64,000 bases of DNA, taken from the NCBI RefSeq assembly GCF_021730615.1, contig NZ_JAJLMN010000001.1, positions 3,173,501-3,237,500 on the forward strand, in the 5' to 3' direction. The notes under the pieces were generated by a model. The model searched no databases. It had not been told where the DNA came from and saw only the letters and a list, made by a program, of their open reading frames with translations. The translations under genes were made by a program, and so were the position numbers. Below, in pieces: positions 23,007 to 62,708 of this stretch. Numbering within the stretch: the first letter of the stretch is position 1; each line of letters begins with the position of its first letter. Origin of the DNA: Lichenibacterium dinghuense (GTDB taxonomy: Bacteria > Pseudomonadota > Alphaproteobacteria > Rhizobiales > Beijerinckiaceae).

Positions 23007-23920
23007 GAGTCCGTCCGGGAAGTCAGGCTGCGCAACCTATGCGACGTAGCAGCATCATGACGGACGCAGCGTAGAGGAAGGCCTTTGCGGATGCGATTGT
23101 GGCCTCCGGATCCTTCCAGAGGCGTCGATTGCGGCTGATCCAGGCGAAGAAGCGCTCAACCACCCATCGCCGGGGGTGAACCACGAAGCCGACCTGCCCG
23201 GGTGGTTTGCGGACGATCTCGACGGCGATGAGCGTGGCGCTGTCCGGCTTGTCGCCGGCGTAGCCCGCGTCGGCGAAGGCCTTGGCGATGAAAGGATATG
23301 AACGGCGTGACTGCTTGAGCACCGGCACGGCCCCGTCGCGGTCCTGCACGTCGGCCGGCTGCGGGTCGAGCACCAGGGCGCGGCCGTCCGTGTCGACCAG
23401 GGCCGGCGCTTGCGACCCTTCACCTTCTTGCCCGCGTCGTAGCCCCGCGGACCGCCGCTCTCCGTGGTCTTCACGCTCTGGCTGTCGAGCACGGCCGCGG
23501 TGGGCGAAGCCTCTCGCCCGGCCCGCTCGCGATCCAGCATGACGAGATGGTGGTTGATGCCGGCGAACAGGCCCTCATCGCGCCACGCGCTGAAGTAGCC
23601 GTACACCGTGCTCTTCGGGGGCAGGTCCTTCGGCAACAGGCGCCAGGGAACGCCGCCCCGCAGCACATAGAAAATGCCGTTCACAATCTCCCGCAACGAC
23701 CACAGCCGGGGCCGTCCGAGCGGGTTGCCGGGCGGCAACAGCGGTTCGATGACGGCCCATTCGGCGTCGGTCAGATCGGTTGAGTAGCGGAGTTCGGAGC
23801 GGCTATGCTGCTCGCGGGTGGCCGGGGTCCACATGGCGGTTCCAGATCAGGTTTCAGCACCCTCCTGGAATCATCTCAGCCCCGGCCACTCAACCCCACG
23901 TGCCCTTATCGGACGGACAC
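23007..23920 (-). mobile_element. IS5-family element inserted in the IS256
   Basis: 914 bp with 11-base ends GAGTCCGTCCG and (complement of the right end) GTGTCCGTCCG, differing at one base, flanked by the 3-base duplication TCA (23004-23006 and 23921-23923). Removing the element and one TCA restores the IS256 frame (FLR-SLERR), which proves the boundaries. A TNA duplication is typical of the IS1031 subgroup of IS5. Confidence 0.88.
23023..23834 (-). CDS. IS5-family transposase in two frames
   Basis: The first frame (start 23834) gives MWTPATREQHSRSELRY, LTDAEWAVIEPLLPP, the catalytic AVLDSQSVKTTESG and GYDAGKKVKGRKR. The second frame, entered near 23405 and ending at 23023, gives LDPQPADVQDRDGA, FADAGYAGDKPDS and the glutamate region HPRRWVVERFFAWISRNRRL. 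One base separates the frames. This may be a programmed shift, as in many IS5 relatives, or decay; there is no textbook A6G slippery run, so decay is a real possibility. Confidence 0.7.
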
Positions 23921-53508: not shown

Positions 53509-54285
53509 TCAATCGCCGCGAAGGACGCCGTCCAGCGTCGACGACGCGCCGTGCCGGGCGATCGATGCGGAATGGCGATCGAAGGCGGCCATGAAGGGCC
53601 GGTAAGCCTGCAAGTCGAGGGCGGCGAACGGCGACGCCCGCAGGATGCCGGCCGGCCCCGACCGAACGAGCGCCCAGTCGGCGGGTTTCAGCACCGGCTC
53701 GACGACATCGAAGGCGGAGCCCGCATCGTCGCGGCCGAGCAGGCAGCGCGCGTAGCAGGCCAGCATGAAGGCTTCCCGGCGCATGTCGGCATTCGCCGCG
53801 ACCAGCGTCGAAAGCGTCTTGGCGTGGAAGGTCGGAAGCTTTGAAGCGCCGTCGCCGGCCACGCGGAGCAGTTGATCCGCGACGGCCGGGTTGGAGAACC
53901 GTTCGACGATCATGGCGCGGTACTTGTCGAGTTGCAGGCCGGACGGCGGGTCGACGTAGGGGATGACGTCGCGGTCGAGGAACGCTCGGACGAGCGCCAC
54001 GACGCGGTCGTCGGCCATGGCCTCGTGCACGAGCCTCTGCCCCATCAGGAGCGACGGCCAGCACATCATCATGTGGGCCGCATTGAGCATGCGCCCCTTG
54101 ACGCCGACGTGTTCTGCGACGTCGTCGCGAAACTCGACGCCCGCCGCCTCGAGCCGCGGGCGCCCGTACCTGAAGCGGTCCTCGCTGACCCATTGATTGA
54201 AGCTTTCCGCCATCGCGGGGAGGCCGTCGTCGACGCCGCTGCGGCGGTTGAGCTTGTCACGGACGGCCTCCGTGACCTGAGAGCC

Positions 54286-54558
54286 TTCTCTGATTGGGGC
54301 TCTGGAGGTCAAGCGCTCCTGTCAGGTTTTTTGTCCCGTTCCCGCGGGTCACACGCTTCTCTTCGCGGTCGGCGTTTCGCCGCCGCATGATGGGGTCAGT
54401 CCGGCTCGGTCCCTCGATCTGTTTCACGACCTCGCGACGTCGCCGCGGGCTCAAGACTCTCAACGAGGTGGCCTTACCGATCGTCCCCACGGGAACGGTC
54501 CACATCACCCTTTCAGGTGAAGCTCGTGCGGGTGGCGGCCCGCGGTGTCCTCCGAGCG
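54286..54558 (-). ncRNA. Candidate guide (bridge) RNA region of IS1111 copy A
   Basis: A 273-bp non-coding stretch after the recombinase stop. In IS1111-group elements the non-coding bridge RNA that pairs with target and donor DNA is encoded at this end. The segment is rich in hairpins, and holds the target-like run GGGGTCAGTCCGGCTC at 54392-54407 on the plus strand. It is identical to copy B apart from one base. Transcription and function are inference. Confidence 0.4.
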
Positions 54559-55608
54559 TCAGGCAACTACGGTGGCGGGCGCGGTGGTCGGCCCGGTGCC
54601 GAACCGAAAGTCGGTACCGTCGCTCCACATCCGGTGCAGGACCACGGCCAGCTTTCGGGCTACGGCAACGCGCGCCCGCGCCATGCCGCGATGCTTGGCG
54701 ATCGTCATGCCCCAGGCCCGCAGGCTGGACCATTTCTGGCTGCGCACGAGCAACGCGTTAGCGGCCTCGTACAGGGCCGTTCGCGCCAGTTCGTCGCCGC
54801 ATCGGCTGATCTTGCCCTGAATGTCGGTCTCGCCCGACTGGTAGCGCGAGGGCGTCAGGCCGAGATGGGCACCGACGTCGCGCGAATGGCCGAACCGATC
54901 GGGTCGGTCGATCGTGGCGCGAAACGCCAGGGCGGTGATCGGGCCGACGCCGGGTGCGCTCATCAGCCGCCGACAGATCTTTTCCTCGCGCACGATCTTC
55001 AGCACCTGTTTTGTCAATCGGGCGAGCTGCTGGATCATCGTCGACAGTACAGTGAGCAACGGCTCCACCATTGCCAGCAACGCTGTGTCGTCCGAGCAGA
55101 GTTCGCGCACACGCTTGTCGAAGGCCGCCCGGCTCGGCGTGCCGACCTTCAGCCCGGCTTCCCGAAGCATGGCCCGAACGACGTTCTCGATCGACCGCAT
55201 CTCGTTCAGCACCGTGCGGCGTGCGACCAGCAGCGAGCGCCACAGCCGGCACTGCTGCGACTTGACGTGCACCTGCCGGAACCAGCCGGTGCGCATGATC
55301 TGCGCCAGGGCACGCGCGTCGTTGCGGTCGGTCTTGTTGGGCATGGTCTTCATGGCGGCGTTGGCCTGCCGTGTCTCGATGCAGACCGCCGCCAGCCCCG
55401 CCGCGCGCAGGCCCTCGTGCAGCCAAGCCGTCAACGAGCAGGCTTCGAGGCCGATCCGCTCGATCGGCAGCTTCAAGCCCTGCAGGGCCGCAACCAGCGG
55501 CCCTGGCGCGCTCGCGGCGCGCAGCTCCTTCACGATCCGACCCGCGTCATCGACCACGCAGATCGCGGTCTCTTCCAGGGACACGTCCAGTCCGGCATAG
55601 TACGTCAT
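54559..55608 (-). CDS. IS110-family recombinase (IS1111 group), copy A
   Basis: A 349-residue DEDD recombinase. The RuvC-like N-terminal domain has YYAGLDVSLEETAICVVD, IGLEACSLTAWLHE and KTDRNDARALAQIMRTG; the C-terminal Tnp20 domain has LMSAPGVGPITALAFRA, HLGLTPSRYQSGETDIQG and the active serine in GKISRCGDELAR. ATG 55608 follows AGGAGC. The protein is the same as that of copy B, and the gene is intact. Confidence 0.93.
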   Translation of the reverse strand: MTYYAGLDVSLEETAICVVDDAGRIVKELRAASAPGPLVAALQGLKLPIERIGLEACSLTAWLHEGLRAAGLAAVCIETRQANAAMKTMPNKTDRNDARALAQIMRTGWFRQVHVKSQQCRLWRSLLVARRTVLNEMRSIENVVRAMLREAGLKVGTPSRAAFDKRVRELCSDDTALLAMVEPLLTVLSTMIQQLARLTKQVLKIVREEKICRRLMSAPGVGPITALAFRATIDRPDRFGHSRDVGAHLGLTPSRYQSGETDIQGKISRCGDELARTALYEAANALLVRSQKWSSLRAWGMTIAKHRGMARARVAVARKLAVVLHRMWSDGTDFRFGTGPTTAPATVVA

Positions 55609-55787
55609 GGTTGCTCCTGTCGCGATGCTTGTGGCCGCTCGACACGGACCACGTTGAACCATCCGGGCAGGAGCAGCCACCGTTGGGCCTGGGCTGGAGC
55701 CCCAATCACCCCATCTGACCCAAAAGGATGGATGACGTCGTCCTGGTTGTGTGATTCAGAGCCGGCGAGCGAGCGGGCAGGATCACC

Positions 55788-56643
55788 ATGTGGACCGACG
55801 AGCAACGAAAAACCTACAGGCGCCTGGGTGGCGGCTTTCCGAGCGATGTCACGGATGCGGAGTGGGCCGTGCTGGGGCCGCTGATCCCGGATGCCACTCC
55901 GGGTGGCAGGCCCGCAAGACCGACATGCGGTCGGCGATGAACGCGCTCCTGTTTCTGCTGCGAACCGGCTGCCCGTGGCGCTATCTGCCGCGGGATGGCT
56001 TTCCTCCGCGTTCGACGGTGTACAACATCTTCCGCAAGTTTCAGGCTGACGGCACGTGGCATGCGATCTGGGACCAGCTTTACCCGATGCTGCGGGAGCG
56101 CGAGGACCGTGAAGGTTCCCCTTCCGCCGGCATCATCGACAGCCAGACGATCAAGTCGGCCGAAAAAGGGGCTGTAAAGCCGAGAAACAGACCGCCGACG
56201 CAGCCGACGCGGTGGGTTACGAGCCTGGAAAGAAGGTGAAAGGTCGCAAGATCCACGCGCTCGTCGACACACTGGGTTTGCCGATCCGCCTCGTCGTCCA
56301 CTCGGCAGGCGTTCAGGACCGCGACGGCGCGGCGCTTCTGTTCGACAAGATCAAGCTCCGGTTTCCGTGGCTGGAATGTGTATTCGCCGACGCGGGCTAT
56401 AATGCGCAACAGACCTATGAGGCGGCAGCGAGCAATGGGCTGCGGCTGGAGGTGGTCCGCCGCAATCCCAAGGCGGTCGGCTTCGAGGTGATCAAGCGCC
56501 GGTGGGTTGTGGAGCGGACCTTCTCCTGGCTCGGGCGGAACCGGCGCCTGGCCAAGGATTTCGAAAACCTCGCCTCGACCCTGCTCGCCTTCGTCACCCT
56601 CGCTGCCATCCAGTTCGGCATCCGGCGACTCGCGCGATCGTAG
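55788..56643 (+). pseudogene. IS5-family transposase, frameshifted
   Basis: Three frames are needed. From ATG 55788: MWTDEQRKTYRRLGGGFPSD, DAEWAVLGPLIPDATPGGRP. Near 55913 one C is missing and the frame changes to KTDMRSAMNALLFLLRTGCP and GIIDSQTIKSAEKG. At 56160-56170 the run AAAAAGGGG suits a -1 programmed shift into VGYEPGKKVKGRKIHALV, FADAGYNAQQTYEAA and KRRWVVERTFSWLGRNRRL, ending 56643. The first shift is probably a true mutation, the second may be programmed. The element is likely inactive. Confidence 0.8.
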
Positions 56644-57584
56644 GCTTTTGGGTCAGGCTCTGAGGCGCGATCCGGTCCACCATGGAGTTCGGGAAGTCCA
56701 CCTCCGCGTCGATCCAGTCCGCGAGGCCGGGGTCCCGCGCGCGGGCGAAGGCCGTGAAGGCCTTTCGGGCCGTGTCGCCGTTGCCGCGGAGGTTGTCGCA
56801 GGAGCAGACCGTGAATCCTCCCAGGCCCGCCGCCCTGCGGCGCGCCAGAGCCTCCACCACGATTCCGAAGCAGGACTTCGGCGGGCCGCCGGCCAGATCG
56901 CGCGCGACGTCGGGGTCGTCCAGGGAGAAGGCACCCGTCGCCTCGTCGATGTTGTACCCGCCCTCCGTGATGGTCAGGCTCACGATCCTGGTGTCGCGAT
57001 GGGCCAGGCGGGCCAGGACCGCTTCGGGATCTGCGGGCGCATGCAGGTAGTCGATCATGGCGCCGATGACCCTCGTCCGGCCTTCGCCGTCCGGGGTGAA
57101 CTCGGTGACCGTGTAGAGACCGTCCTGTCGCCGGAAGGCCGCGGCCTTGGCGCGGGCCGCGGGCCCGTCCAGCAATCCCACCCCGACGATGCCCCAGGCT
57201 TCCTGGTCGGGCGACGCCAGGCAGTCGTCGACGTAGAGCGCCAAGTGGGTCCGATGGAAGTTGCCGACCCCGATGTGGACGATGCCGGCCCGCAGGGCCG
57301 AACGATCGTAGCGCGGCACGGCGACGTGCTCGGGGAGACTGTCCAGCGTCCGGCCGCTGAGCGTGCGCATCGGGATTCCTTCCTGTGGTTCGAACATCGA
57401 GCCCGTTTCCGGGGCGGCTCTCCCCTCCATCGACCGGCCTCGCCACGGCGATGCCGTCCGCGTGCAGCGGGCCGGCGCGTTCCCCGAGTCGGCCGCGGGA
57501 GAGCGCCCCGCTCCCTCCGCGGCCGCATGCTCGCCCTCATCCCCGCGCCGAGCCGAGTTTCACGCCCGGGACTTCAGGTGCCGG

Positions 57585-58892
57585 TCACTTGTAGTAGCCC
57601 GCCTTCTCCATGTCCCGCTGCGTAGACTGCTGGGCCTGCGCGAGCGCGTCATCGACGGAGGTCTGCCCGGCGATCGCCGACGCGAAGATCTGGCCGACGT
57701 TCGTGCCGATGGCCTGATATTGAGGGATGATGACGTACTGCCAGAACTGGTAGGGCGTCTTGGGCTTCCCTATGCTCGCAGAGTTCATCGCGTCGAGCGT
57801 CATCCTCGCGAACGGCGCCGCGGCCAGGTACTTGGGGTTCTGGTGGAGCGACGTGCGGGTGCCCGGAGGCACGTTGGCCCAGCCGTCCTGCGACGCCACG
57901 AGGTCCGTGTAGGACTTCGACGTCGCCCAGGAGATGAACTTCTCCGCCGCGTCGACCTTCTTGGACGAGGACGGAACAGCCAGGTTCCAGGCCCAGAGCC
58001 AGTTCCCGTGGTCGGTCCCGTCGGGGCCGGTCGGGGCGACGGCGAAGCCCACCTTGTCGGCGACCTTGGACTGTTTGGGGTCCGAAAGGAACGAGGCCGC
58101 GACGGAGGCGTCGACCCAGGTGGCGCAGTGACCCTGCTGGAACAGGGCGAGGTTCTCGTTGAAGCCGTTGGACGTCGCGCCCGCCGGACCCGCGTCCTTC
58201 ATCAGGTCGGCGTAGAACGTCACCGTCTGCTTCCAGGCGGGCTTGTCGAACTGTGGCTTCCACTGGTCGTCGAACCAGCGCGCCCCGAACGAGTTCGCGA
58301 GCGACGTCACCGAGGCCATGTTCTCGCCCCAGCCGGGCTTGCCCCTCATGCAGGCCCCGTACACGTCCGCCCCTCGATCGGTCAGCTTCCGGGCCGCGTC
58401 CGCGATGAACTCCCACGTCGGGGAGGCCGGCATCGCGATGCCGGCCTTCTCGAACAGGTCCTTGCGATACATCAGGAGGGAGCTCTCGCCGTAGAAGGGC
58501 GCGGCATAGAGCTTGCCGTCGTGGGAGACGGCCTCGCGGATCGCCGGGAGCAGGTCGCCGGCATCGTAGTCGGCGCCCAGCTTGTCCAGGGGAAGGATCC
58601 AGCCGAGCTTCGCCCAGATCGGCGCCTCGTAGGTCCCGATGGTCATGATGTCGAACTGGCCGCCCTTGGTGGCGATGTCCGTGGTCAGGCGCTGGCGGAG
58701 CACGTTCTCCTCCAACGTGACCCATCTCAGCTGGATGTCGGGGTTCTTGGCCGTGAAGTCGCTCGACAGCCGCTGCATGCGGATCATGTCGCCGTTGTTG
58801 ACCGTGGCGATGGTCAGCGTTTCCGCGCCCCCAGGCCCGGTCATGGCGACGAACAGCAGAGCCGCCGCGACCGTGGATGACAGAGCATTCAT
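57585..58892 (-). CDS. Polyol/sugar ABC transporter substrate-binding protein
   Basis: A 435-residue family-1 binding protein, like SmoE (sorbitol/mannitol receptor). It has a signal peptide (MNALSSTVAAALLFVAMTG, cleavage near GGAE), then LTIATVNNGDMIRMQRLSSD, QFDIMTIGTYEAPIWAKLGW, GESSLLMYRKDLFEKAGI and GGNAW-like HGNWLWAWNLAVPSSS. It captures a polyol in the periplasm for an ABC importer. GGAGAG precedes ATG 58892. The two permease genes normally next to it are absent; the split polyol dehydrogenase gene follows after 214 non-coding bases. Confidence 0.9.
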   Translation of the reverse strand: MNALSSTVAAALLFVAMTGPGGAETLTIATVNNGDMIRMQRLSSDFTAKNPDIQLRWVTLEENVLRQRLTTDIATKGGQFDIMTIGTYEAPIWAKLGWILPLDKLGADYDAGDLLPAIREAVSHDGKLYAAPFYGESSLLMYRKDLFEKAGIAMPASPTWEFIADAARKLTDRGADVYGACMRGKPGWGENMASVTSLANSFGARWFDDQWKPQFDKPAWKQTVTFYADLMKDAGPAGATSNGFNENLALFQQGHCATWVDASVAASFLSDPKQSKVADKVGFAVAPTGPDGTDHGNWLWAWNLAVPSSSKKVDAAEKFISWATSKSYTDLVASQDGWANVPPGTRTSLHQNPKYLAAAPFARMTLDAMNSASIGKPKTPYQFWQYVIIPQYQAIGTNVGQIFASAIAGQTSVDDALAQAQQSTQRDMEKAGYYK

Positions 58893-59011
58893 GCGTTCTC
58901 TCCTTCTCGGTTCCTCGGGTCGTCGGAAGTGGTTGGCCCACCTCGCCGCTCTTAGAGCCTGTTTGACCTTTCTTTGATCGGTTTGCGTTGTCGTTTCTGG
59001 TGGAGGCGACG

Positions 59012-59818
59012 ATGTGGACTGCCGAGGCTCGGGATCGCTACAAGGATGACGGTCGGCGCTATCCGAGCGATCTGACAGACAGCGAGTGGGCAACACTTGC
59101 GCCGATGATGGGCGTGTACAGGACGCTGACCGCTGACCTGCGCGAGATCGTCAACGCCTGCTTGTATCTGGAGAAGGCCGGCTGTCCATGGCGTTTTCTG
59201 CCCAGGGAGTTCGGTCCGTGGCAGACCGTGCGCTCCTGGCACGACCGCTTCCGCGCCGACGGCGTGTGGGCCGACATCGCGGCCGTGCTGACGCGCGCCG
59301 AGCGGGCTCGCCGCGGACGCGACCCCGAACCCGCGACGGCGATCATGGACTCGCAAAGCGTCGCGTCAGGGCCGCAGGCGGGAGAGCGCGGCGTGGACGG
59401 CAACAAAAAGGTGAAGGGCATCAAGCGTCACGTGCTGACCTGCTCGCTCGGCTTCGTGCTCGCCACGTCGGTGACGGCCGCCAACGTGCACGACACGGCC
59501 GCCGCGGCAGAGTTGCTGGACCGCGCCGCTGCCGAGGGCTGGACGCCTCGACGCGTCAAGGTCGACGGCATCTACAGCGGTGCCCGCATGGCGCAGGCCG
59601 CCGCACCTCACGGCATCGAGGTTCAGGTCTCTACGCGCGAGCGGGACGTGAAAGGCTTCAAACCCTTGCCCGTGCGATGGCGCATCGAGGGCACCTTCGG
59701 CACCCTGACCAACCGCTATCATCGCCTCACGCGCAACCTGGAACAGAGCACCACGGCAGCCGAAGATGCCGTCAGCATCGCCAACTGCCACCGCCTGATC
59801 CGAGCCTATAACAGCTAA
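59012..59818 (+). CDS. IS5-family transposase, intact
   Basis: A 268-residue DDE transposase in one frame: MWTAEARDRYKDDGRRYPSD, DSEWATLAPMMGV, PCRFLPREF-like CPWRFLPREFGPWQ, the catalytic AIMDSQSVASGPQAG, VDGNKKVKGIKRHVLTC, and the glutamate region PVRWRIEGTFGTLTNRYHRL. An ATG eight codons upstream (58988) is also open. The right end of the element is now separated by the IS1111 insert. Confidence 0.9.
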   Translation: MWTAEARDRYKDDGRRYPSDLTDSEWATLAPMMGVYRTLTADLREIVNACLYLEKAGCPWRFLPREFGPWQTVRSWHDRFRADGVWADIAAVLTRAERARRGRDPEPATAIMDSQSVASGPQAGERGVDGNKKVKGIKRHVLTCSLGFVLATSVTAANVHDTAAAAELLDRAAAEGWTPRRVKVDGIYSGARMAQAAAPHGIEVQVSTRERDVKGFKPLPVRWRIEGTFGTLTNRYHRLTRNLEQSTTAAEDAVSIANCHRLIRAYNS

Positions 59819-59938
59819 GACAGGTCAAACAGATGGGGTGATTGGGGCTCCAGCCCAGGCCCAACGGTGGCTGCTCCTGCCCGGATGGTTCAACGTGGTC
59901 CGTGTCGAGCGGCCACAAGCATCGCGACAGGAGCAACC

Positions 59939-60988
59939 ATGACGTACTATGCCGGACTGGACGTGTCCCTGGAAGAGACCGCGATCTGCGTGGTCGATGA
60001 CGCGGGTCGGATCGTGAAGGAGCTGCGCGCCGCGAGCGCGCCAGGGCCGCTGGTTGCGGCCCTGCAGGGCTTGAAGCTGCCGATCGAGCGGATCGGCCTC
60101 GAAGCCTGCTCGTTGACGGCTTGGCTGCACGAGGGCCTGCGCGCGGCGGGGCTGGCGGCGGTCTGCATCGAGACACGGCAGGCCAACGCCGCCATGAAGA
60201 CCATGCCCAACAAGACCGACCGCAACGACGCGCGTGCCCTGGCGCAGATCATGCGCACCGGCTGGTTCCGGCAGGTGCACGTCAAGTCGCAGCAGTGCCG
60301 GCTGTGGCGCTCGCTGCTGGTCGCACGCCGCACGGTGCTGAACGAGATGCGGTCGATCGAGAACGTCGTTCGGGCCATGCTTCGGGAAGCCGGGCTGAAG
60401 GTCGGCACGCCGAGCCGGGCGGCCTTCGACAAGCGTGTGCGCGAACTCTGCTCGGACGACACAGCGTTGCTGGCGATGGTGGAGCCGTTGCTCACTGTAC
60501 TGTCGACGATGATCCAGCAGCTCGCCCGATTGACAAAACAGGTGCTGAAGATCGTGCGCGAGGAAAAGATCTGTCGGCGGCTGATGAGCGCACCCGGCGT
60601 CGGCCCGATCACCGCCCTGGCGTTTCGCGCCACGATCGACCGACCCGATCGGTTCGGCCATTCGCGCGACGTCGGTGCCCATCTCGGCCTGACGCCCTCG
60701 CGCTACCAGTCGGGCGAGACCGACATTCAGGGCAAGATCAGCCGATGCGGCGACGAACTGGCGCGAACGGCCCTGTACGAGGCCGCTAACGCGTTGCTCG
60801 TGCGCAGCCAGAAATGGTCCAGCCTGCGGGCCTGGGGCATGACGATCGCCAAGCATCGCGGCATGGCGCGGGCGCGCGTTGCCGTAGCCCGAAAGCTGGC
60901 CGTGGTCCTGCACCGGATGTGGAGCGACGGTACCGACTTTCGGTTCGGCACCGGGCCGACCACCGCGCCCGCCACCGTAGTTGCCTGA
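59939..60988 (+). CDS. IS110-family recombinase (IS1111 group), copy B
   Basis: A 349-residue DEDD recombinase, same protein as copy A; the only coding difference is the silent change GCG/GCA at 60475. Upstream non-coding DNA is short (107 bp) and downstream non-coding DNA long (273 bp), the layout of the IS1111 group rather than the IS110 group. AGGAGC precedes ATG 59939. Confidence 0.93.
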   Translation: MTYYAGLDVSLEETAICVVDDAGRIVKELRAASAPGPLVAALQGLKLPIERIGLEACSLTAWLHEGLRAAGLAAVCIETRQANAAMKTMPNKTDRNDARALAQIMRTGWFRQVHVKSQQCRLWRSLLVARRTVLNEMRSIENVVRAMLREAGLKVGTPSRAAFDKRVRELCSDDTALLAMVEPLLTVLSTMIQQLARLTKQVLKIVREEKICRRLMSAPGVGPITALAFRATIDRPDRFGHSRDVGAHLGLTPSRYQSGETDIQGKISRCGDELARTALYEAANALLVRSQKWSSLRAWGMTIAKHRGMARARVAVARKLAVVLHRMWSDGTDFRFGTGPTTAPATVVA

Positions 60989-61261
60989 CGCTCGGAGGAC
61001 ACCGCGAGCCGCCACCCGCACGAGCTTCACCTGAAAGGGTGATGTGGACCGTTCCCGTGGGGACGATCGGTAAGGCCACCTCGTTGAGAGTCTTGAGCCC
61101 GCGGCGACGTCGCGAGGTCGTGAAACAGATCGAGGGACCGAGCCGGACTGACCCCATCATGCGGCGGCGAAACGCCGACCGCGAAGAGAAGCGTGTGACC
61201 CGCGGGAACGGGACAAAAAACCTGACAGGAGCGCTTGACCTCCAGAGCCCCAATCAGAGAA
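60989..61261 (+). ncRNA. Candidate guide (bridge) RNA region of IS1111 copy B
   Basis: The 273-bp non-coding end after the recombinase stop. Visible hairpins include GTTCCC/GGGGAC near 61050, CACC/GGTG near 61027, and CGGCG AAA CGCCG near 61165. At 61140-61155 it reads GAGCCGGACTGACCCC, whose halves match the IS5 inverted repeats that are the targets (GAGCC, TGACCC). A bridge-RNA role is inferred from the IS110/IS1111 mechanism known from other elements. Confidence 0.4.
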
Positions 61262-61270
61262 GGCTCTTAG

Positions 61271-62708
61271 CACTACTTTGGCACGTTCAACTCGATGATG
61301 CGCGGTTGAGGAGCCGATCGCAATGCGGGCATCGCGTGAGGTGCCGGCCCAGGCTGTCCAGCATGGCCCGGCGTACGGCCGGAAGGGTCGGCTGAGGCGG
61401 TGGCAGGCCCGCCTTCAGCTTTTTTTCCCCGCCCCGCTCGGGCGAGCCGTCGGTGCTGCAGGAACGCGTAGGCCAGCATGGTCATCAGCGCGTGTCGGTG
61501 CAGCCCCGTCCAGGACCGGCCTTCAAAATGGTCGAGGCCCAATTCCTCCTTCACCTGCTGGTGCGCCTGTTCGCACACCCAGCGCGCCTTGATGGCACTC
61601 GCCAGGCGACGCAGGCTGGCCTTCGGCGGCAGGTTCGACAGGTAGAACTTCCGCTCGCCCGAGGCGCGATGCTCGCCTACCAACCACACCTCCTCGTCGC
61701 CGGGCAGGTGCTGGTTCGCCTTGCCGCCGATGCGCCGCGTGGGGCCGTCCGCGACGCGCACCCGCGCGGCGGCAAAGCGCGCCTTCAGCCGTCCCTTGGT
61801 GCCCGAGCGCCATGTCACCGAACACCACCTGGCCCGCCCCAGCACGGCTTCGGCCGGTTCCGACGCCGTGTCGGGGAGCAGGAAGTCAGACGGGCGCCCC
61901 GGCTTCGGCTCGGCCGGCAGCAGTTTCACGTCGGCCGGATAGACTTTGACGTTGGACGGCACGCCGACTGCCCAGGCGAGCCCTCGCGCGCTCAGTCCCG
62001 CCCGGAACGTCGCGCTGCAGCCGTAGCCCGCGTCGGCCAGCACAAGGCCGAAGCGCACCCCTGCGGCCCTGACGCGGTCCACCTCGCCCAGCGCGATCTC
62101 AGGCTTGGTGCGCGGCGCCCGCGCCGCCTCGGGCACGCCCGCCCGGGCCATGCGGGTCGCGTCGTCGGTCCATGTCGTGGGCAGAAACAGCCGCAGCCCG
62201 AGCAGCACCGGCACCTCGCGCCGCGCCAAGGTGAGCGACACCATCGCTTGGCAGTTGCCGGTTTTGCCCTGCGTCGACAGGTACTGCGGCGCTACACCGA
62301 CCGAGTGCCGTCCCTTCTTGGGCAGCGACGTATCGTCGATCACCAGCACGGCGTCGCGCCCGCCCACCATGCGGTCCGCCTCGGCCAGAAGCGTGCGGGC
62401 GAGCGGAGCATCGTCCCAGCGCCCGACCGAGATGAAGTGCTGCAGCCGGTCGTAGCTGAGCCCGTCCTGGCGCGCCGCCATAGGCTGCATGCTTTTGCGC
62501 TCGCCCAGCCCGATCAGCCCGGCGATGTAATGCGGGCACATTGTCCGCCGCGCCGCGTGGTTCAGTTCCGCCAGGAACGGCTCCAGCCAGCAATCCAGAT
62601 CCGCCCGCCAGTTTCCTCCATCGCCCATGACGCCCACCCCGCACCGGCACATCCCGGCGTGGAATCCGCAAAGGCCCTATCGCGTTCCGCGAAATACCAA
62701 AGTAGTGT
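61271..62708 (-). mobile_element. IS701-family insertion sequence
   Basis: 1438 bp with inverted ends CACTACTTTGG (61271 onward) and CCAAAGTAGTG (to 62708), flanked by the duplication TTAG (61267-61270 and 62709-62712). A 4-base YTAR duplication is usual for IS701. Its target TTAG overlaps the TTA duplication of the second IS5, so it inserted directly beside that element after it. Confidence 0.9.
61273..62628 (-). CDS. IS701-family transposase
   Basis: A 451-residue transposase: AARRTMCPHYIAGLIGLGER, LSYDRLQHFISVGRWDD, the catalytic DAVLVIDDTSLPKKGRHSVG, VLADAGYGCSATFRAGL and WVCEQAHQQVKEELGLDHFE. ATG 62628 is preferred; an ATG eight codons upstream exists. The frame is intact and its stop lies almost at the element end. 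A glycine/proline-rich tail follows the last catalytic motif. Confidence 0.92.
   Translation of the reverse strand: MGDGGNWRADLDCWLEPFLAELNHAARRTMCPHYIAGLIGLGERKSMQPMAARQDGLSYDRLQHFISVGRWDDAPLARTLLAEADRMVGGRDAVLVIDDTSLPKKGRHSVGVAPQYLSTQGKTGNCQAMVSLTLARREVPVLLGLRLFLPTTWTDDATRMARAGVPEAARAPRTKPEIALGEVDRVRAAGVRFGLVLADAGYGCSATFRAGLSARGLAWAVGVPSNVKVYPADVKLLPAEPKPGRPSDFLLPDTASEPAEAVLGRARWCSVTWRSGTKGRLKARFAAARVRVADGPTRRIGGKANQHLPGDEEVWLVGEHRASGERKFYLSNLPPKASLRRLASAIKARWVCEQAHQQVKEELGLDHFEGRSWTGLHRHALMTMLAYAFLQHRRLARAGRGKKAEGGPATASADPSGRTPGHAGQPGPAPHAMPALRSAPQPRIIELNVPK

Follow-up and report, generated by a model that had tools for sequence, protein, structure and literature searches.

IS1383 of Pseudomonas putida, an insertion sequence (IS) of IS1111/IS110 type, was described in 2001 as using the inverted repeats of IS1384 as its specific target, and IS1384 is listed as an IS5-family member in a table of PMC5141477. 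Likewise, IS4321 and IS5075, both IS1111 elements, are described as inserting in Tn21-family terminal inverted repeats. Here we analyse a 1430-bp element of similar habit, found twice in a window of 64,000 nucleotides from Lichenibacterium dinghuense (contig NZ_JAJLMN010000001.1, positions 3,173,501 to 3,237,500; coordinates below are those of the window). Both copies lie five bases inside the tip of an IS5-family element, and we put the probability that this is an RNA-guided IS1111 element targeting IS5 tips at roughly 0.9. Because IS1383/IS1384 and IS4321/IS5075 precede it, the basic behaviour is not new, and an initial annotation of the window was mistaken in stating that no named case was known for IS5 tips. 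The targeting being already known, what is new here is a member whose guide can be read and is seen changing with the target in relatives.

The resemblance to described systems is partial. The title of the IS1383 publication names one target IS, as against four IS5 elements hit here, and the targets described for IS4321/IS5075 are Tn21-family ends, not IS5 tips. No Pseudomonas record figures among the 40 best plasmid matches to our element, all above 51% identity; IS1383 could therefore be missing from that collection, or else be related only distantly. The seekRNA of IS1111 elements, its guide order and its natural retargeting have been reported (PMC11187229). ISEc11, ISKpn4, ISPst6 and ISPa11, as presented there, have the same layout, with a 3′ non-coding RNA in which the guide for one strand precedes that for the other, and ISEc11 and ISXne4 illustrate retargeting between relatives as seen here; unlike our element, which is found in IS5 tips, they are reported to target a short linear site, attC sites or repetitive extragenic palindromic (REP) sequences. 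The bridge RNA described for IS621 (PMC11208160) has a target-binding loop with two guides and tolerates an rG:dT pair, both as proposed here; IS621 differs in belonging to the IS110 group, in carrying its RNA mostly in the upstream end and in its short subterminal inverted repeat (STIR). ISMno22 of Methylobacterium nodulans has a recombinase 81.5% identical over 96% of the query and the same subterminal inverted repeat (sTIR), TGATTGGGGTC. Like our element it lies between CTGAGAGTCC and TGTCCGATAAG; it differs in that TCTCT, five additional bases, intervenes between CTGAGAGTCC and the right end as expected, so that this motif lies further out, and no annotated IS5 gene adjoins. No further case of IS5-tip targeting was recognised among titles and beginnings of abstracts, a scope outside which most subscription papers fall.

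Two copies in the tips of different IS5 elements

The elements in the window are the following.

54286..55715, minus strand: copy A of the IS1111-group element, in the left tip of IS5 #1, 5 bp inside
59832..61261, plus strand: copy B of the IS1111-group element, in the right tip of IS5 #2, 5 bp inside
54559..55608, minus strand: DEDD recombinase of copy A, 349 aa, mirror of copy B, inside the open reading frame (ORF) 54559-55680
59939..60988, plus strand: DEDD recombinase (349 aa) of copy B, with PF01548, PF02371 and NF033542
54281..56660, plus strand: IS5 #1, interrupted by copy A; left tip 54281-54285, body 55716-56660, target duplication TGA
58955..61266, plus strand: IS5 #2, interrupted by copy B; body 58955-59831, right tip 61262-61266, target duplication TTA

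Each copy measures 1430 bp, and the two differ at element positions 644 and 1176. Copy A is flanked by GAGCC (54281-54285) on one side and TGACCC on the other, copy B by GGCTC (61262-61266) and, as read on the opposite strand, by TGTTTGACC; in both, the recombinase stop is oriented to the outer IS5 tip. The duplications bordering the two hosts are TGA (54278-54280 and 56661-56663) for IS5 #1 and TTA (58952-58954 and 61267-61269) for IS5 #2. Copies A and B represent separate insertions, since their IS5 hosts differ and their haplotypes differ as well. In all these respects (group, length, the two differences, coordinates, position, orientation and independence of the events) the initial annotation is borne out.

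The assignment to the IS1111 group draws on several features. The recombinase carries both PF01548 and PF02371, and it also matches NF033542 (“IS110 family RNA-guided transposase”). The sTIRs, TGATTGGGGCTC and GAGCCCCAATCA, are 12 bp long, within the 11-13 bp or so typical of the group (10-13 bp in relatives, where that repeat was the one picked). They are followed by extensions of 7 bp on the left (GATGGGG) and 4-5 bp on the right, depending on how the core is assigned, compared with 7 and 3 bp in the IS1111 group. The non-coding portion amounts to 273 bp after the recombinase stop versus 107 bp before the start, thus giving the long downstream region of the group, and this region contains what from sequence alone appear to be guides for both target strands in IS1111 order (see below). 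The 1430-bp element is an insertion sequence of the IS1111 group, within the IS110 superfamily. With IS4321/IS5075 and IS1383, the IS1111 elements that target ends of other mobile elements, it shares a single fixed position and orientation within the terminal repeats of its host.

One site and one orientation throughout the genome

A whole-genome search identified 17 copies: 15 of full length, 99.6-100% identical to copy A, one (L015; L numbers denote loci) with its right end displaced by about 2.6 kb, and one split into two pieces, L017 and L018, about 2.5 kb apart, other inserts being the cause in both cases. All 17 occupy the same position in the same orientation, after TNAGAGYC and before TG; the outer sequence is TNA-GAGCC in 16 cases and TNA-GAGTC in one. 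The single orientation at GAGCC-type ends seen by the initial annotation in two copies thus extends to every copy in the genome, GAGTC being used once. No copy departs from the common position or orientation, so that the refuting condition named by the annotation, copies at other places, did not arise.

Sixteen copies lie inside bodies with an IS5_3-type transposase or its remnant. They are shared out among four different IS5 elements: IS5 #1 with five hits, IS5 #2 with eight, IS5 #4 (a decayed IS5 between L014 and L013) with two and IS5 #3 (a remnant cut by an IS3 element, at L016) with one. As expected for remnants, the assignments of #4 and #3 score below the NCBIfam curated cut-off (53 and 34 bits versus 110). 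The host of L017/L018 is not among the sixteen because the ORF just inside is identical to the IS3-family ORF of L057. At L057 itself (G000:C1:5404500-5412000) the insertions are nested: our element occupies the left tip of an IS5 remnant, this remnant is interrupted by an IS3-family element, and a copy of IS5 #2 abuts its right end, tip against tip.

The near-identity of the 15 full copies raises the possibility that the element was copied along with IS5, by duplication or co-transposition, instead of inserting many times. Both members of a pair on one IS5 share a haplotype in three of four pairs (L007/L010 differ), as such an origin would predict. Against it, four different IS5 elements are hit at different loci, three of them at both ends, and the most diverged copy of IS5 #2 (98%) carries elements of a haplotype also present in IS5 #1. 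Since haplotypes are common to different IS5 types, insertion must have occurred repeatedly. Carriage of the element by a moving IS5 was therefore rejected on these two grounds, and we regard co-copying as highly improbable.

Guides that vary in step with targets

The following features were delimited in the 3′ non-coding region, through alignment of relatives and stem analysis in copy B and by correspondence in copy A.

61046..61193, plus strand: seekRNA/bridge-RNA-like region of copy B
54354..54501, minus strand: the same region of copy A, placed by identity with copy B
61084..61092, plus strand: target guide 1 of copy B, TTGAGAGTC, matching CTNAGAGYC on the tip side
61121..61127, plus strand: target guide 2 of copy B, TGAAACA, complement of TGTTTCA on the inner side
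54455..54463, minus strand: target guide 1 of copy A
54420..54426, minus strand: target guide 2 of copy A
61151..61158, plus strand: putative donor guide ACCCCATC, complementing the element's own left end, GATGGGGT; by eye, in (nearly) invariant columns
61184..61191, plus strand: putative donor guide AAGAGAAG, corresponding on the same strand to the right end with its flank (AGAGAAG); by eye, in (nearly) invariant columns

An Rfam scan of 54200-61400 returned no family matching the RNA region. As RNA, guide 1 (UUGAGAGUC) matches target duplication plus tip, with a U that could wobble on GAGCC, and guide 2 (UGAAACA) matches TGTTT.

Relatives were collected from genome contigs by protein similarity, not by flank. 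The search produced 67 loci, by their titles almost all from Alphaproteobacteria (Marinicella sp. W31 may be an exception); 21 of them, lacking the right-end motif, and L080, which adjoins uvrA and whose outer flank is missing, were left out. The 45 loci counted fall into three classes by outer flank. Twenty-nine have TNAGAGYC, of which 26 are in exact register and 3 are offset by one base or a few, and one more (L110) has a near variant of it; seven have CAGGC (CTAGCAGGCT in six), and eight, from Jiella, have ATTCT-like flanks, several inside palindromic sites as judged by eye. The recombinases of L087-L091 and L106, on the Jiella pelagia chromosome, are 76% identical to ours; their sites have different flanks and resemble in part palindromes (TGAAACA...TGTTTCA, by eye) rather than IS tips.

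In aligned 3′ regions of these relatives, two segments vary in step with the targets. Guide 1 reads mostly TTNAGAGTC or TTNAGAGCC at IS5 tips, TTAGCAGGC in the CAGGC class and CTTCRATTC in Jiella; guide 2 reads TGAAACA, TTCAACA, TGGCACA and others. Pairing was evaluated by shuffling targets among elements, after dropping 5 of 48 rows (L077, containing N; L080, without flank; L103 and L125, duplicates; L132, rearranged). Guide 1 forms 7.79 of 9 pairs with its own target versus 6.65 when shuffled (43 rows), and guide 2 forms 6.03 of 7 versus 5.42 (32 rows), values reached in 0 of 20,000 permutations in either case, related rows not being independent. With one row per guide class, 5 of 20,000 permutations reach the value for guide 1 (17 rows) and 6 of 20,000 that for guide 2 (13 rows). 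The three guides that read GAGCC (L071, L078, L079) are all at GAGCC, a small number, and guides with GAGUC occupy GAGTC or GAGCC, as U-G wobble predicts. At L078 and L082, a UGGCACA guide 2 faces a TGTGCC target.

The guides lie within an internal loop closed by a conserved 13-pair stem. The motif filter skipped 7 loci and identical or odd-length rows were left out; of the 33 sequences then extracted, 29 were aligned (L072, L100, L129 and L133 were left out). In this alignment 95.5% of the cells of the stem are paired and 5 of the 13 pairs have changed on both sides. Four of five measures stand above nearly all shuffles (0, 1, 0 and 0 of 500 reach them).

These observations suggest how the element may work. 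A small RNA from the 3′ non-coding region would steer the DEDD recombinase; it is probably made and used. Its guide 1 would read nine bases spanning the junction between the IS5 target duplication (CTNA) and the tip (GAGYC), with the U pairing to A or wobbling on G, so that both GAGTC and GAGCC would be accepted. Guide 2 would read the inner side (TG, at best TGTTT) with tolerance. Strand exchange at a 2-bp core, CT, would then put the insertion point 5 bp inside the tip without net loss of target. The junctions fit such a core (the target reads GAGC-CT-G, and CT stands on either side of the element), which makes CT the likely exact core. As several IS5-type elements carry the same tip, one guide can reach several of them.

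Targeting through recombinase-DNA contacts or DNA shape, with the RNA match a coincidence, would account for the poor fit of guide 2 to some used sites. It would leave unexplained that similar recombinases (82% at L070, 79% at L074, 78% at L085, 76-77% in Jiella) serve three target classes that follow the guides, and the IS1111 elements described in PMC11187229 are RNA-guided. We consider it very unlikely, and the least probable of the alternatives.

Besides the dependence between related rows, a number of results weigh against RNA guidance toward IS5 tips. Guide 2 fits the tips of IS5 #1 (TGACCCA) at only 4 of 7 positions, though IS5 #1 is hit five times, and scores 3-4 of 7 at L070, L076, L096 and L100. 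For guide 1, Jiella targets match partly (4 to 8 of 9 over 8 rows), and L073, L124 and L133 reach 3-5 of 9 in fixed register. The fifth measure of the stem, “further pair types”, does not stand out from the shuffles, of which 274 of 500 reach it. Among inner neighbour ORFs of the TNAGAGYC class, as classified by NCBIfam, one of 13 is IS630 (L098) and four show no transposase (L071, L092, L097, L118), against eight with IS5_3 (L079 and L101 below the curated cut-off). Of the plasmid copies (8 loci fetched, 5 with readable ends), those of Sphingobium and Methylocystis MJC1 deviate from the rule (2 of the 5); those of M. radiotolerans and Acidiphilium follow it and adjoin annotated IS5 genes.

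Since the inner neighbour is not always IS5_3, the RNA would read a sequence and not “IS5” as such. L092, L081, L094 and L104 have an inner sequence in common by eye; at L104, whose right end was not found, the neighbour is IS5_3, and L092, L081 and L094 may likewise be IS5 ends. Within the CAGGC class, L074 and L099 (the latter by inner side only) adjoin IS5_4, and the single ORF tried at L073 gave none. At L098 (Ensifer sp. BR816) the element adjoins an IS630-family gene at ATAAGAGTCC, a juxtaposition which suggests that tips outside the IS5 family are also targeted when the letters match.

Wider sampling gave the following picture. In a census of 397 genomes of the same order with a 12-base right-end pattern, matches outside the L. 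dinghuense genome (G000) were judged from their flanks to be mostly chance and were excluded from the statistics; G315, of the same family, fits the rule, and G077 and G255 come near it. A sample of 299 genomes from the phylum contained, outside the own genome, relatives 43-50% identical, along with a single partial match of 77%; their ends, several of them unreadable, showed no clear IS-tip rule when inspected briefly. The series of natural guides and targets makes RNA-guided DNA insertion directly readable, together with the likely use of wobble and the switch of guides from one target class to another.

Occupancy of IS5 ends

The genome has four full copies of IS5 #1, three with one hit and one with two, and eight of IS5 #2, of which two are un-hit, four have one hit and two have two. 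Altogether, hits occupy 13 of the 24 ends, and one end or both are interrupted in 10 of the 12 copies, close to binomial expectation. One un-hit IS5 #2 end has an altered tip base. IS transposases need both tips, and for this reason the 10 interrupted copies are expected to be immobile. A brake on IS5 spread, as proposed in the initial annotation, would fit this occupancy; within this one genome, a safe and plentiful landing site would fit it equally. The case is countable, and so bears on the question whether one mobile element limits another.

Target duplications differ between the two ends in 5 of the 12 copies of IS5 #1 and #2, for example at G000:C1 5210136-5213936 and 5464277-5468008, and in 2 of 14 copies of the IS5-like element described next (by eye), which suggests recombination between copies. 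The notion that unequal duplications mark doubly hit IS5 was dropped, since un-hit copies have them too and recombination fits.

A further element in the window behaves differently.

23007..23920, strand not assigned: IS5-like element #5, tips GAGTC-CGTCCG and GTGTC-CGTCCG; 14 full-length genomic copies, all un-hit

Known from DNA alone, it is placed in the family by weak DNA similarity to IS5 #1, its tip and a TNA duplication. Its 14 full copies are near-identical and all have both tips intact, giving 0 of 28 ends hit versus 13 of 24 for IS5 #1 and #2 (Fisher p = 3.9e-6). Guide 1 pairs 8-9 of 9 with the left tip, GAGTC-CG, as at used sites (8-9 of 9), and 7-8 with the right tip. At the core, #5 has C for T, and its guide 2 pairing is 3 of 7 versus 4-6 at used sites. 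The core base is a lead to the cause of the un-hit state; against such an escape, later spread of #5 could equally give no hits.

In contrast to guided insertion, insertion might be wider, with only harmless hits in IS5 tips surviving. Nine TNAGAGCCTG sites near which no inverted-repeat partner was found are all empty, and many could be in genes, where insertion would be harmful; a tenth site, L138, resembles an IS5 #1 remnant. If 17 hits are drawn from 39 such sites, the chance that every one is among the 30 IS5 sites is 0.002, a bias for which selection against hits in genes could be an alternative source. Such survivorship does not explain that all copies share one base position and one orientation, that IS5-like #5 escapes while IS5 #1 and #2 are hit, or that guides change with targets in relatives, and we consider it very unlikely.

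A broader extension of RNA-guided targeting is offered tentatively, and we think it rather less probable than its negation: an alphaproteobacterial clade might be specialised on the joint of target duplication and IS5-type tip, with one wobble-tolerant guide serving several IS5 and the guide rewritten for other IS types. It would thereby act as a natural RNA-guided brake, from which elements with GAGTC-CG, not GAGYC-TG, would escape and multiply (14 un-hit copies of 14, versus 2 of 12 for the two targeted types).

Neighbouring genes

IS5 #1, with copy A, interrupts an apparent mannitol/polyol dehydrogenase gene (53509-57430), adjoined by a gene for a sugar-binding transport protein, both read by eye from ORFs. 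A DDE_5 (PF13546) transposase gene (61276-62652) directly adjoins the right end of IS5 #2. The transposase of IS5 #1 (55751-56643) is encoded by two frames that overlap at an A5G4 run, an arrangement resembling that of IS5 elements with programmed frameshifting.

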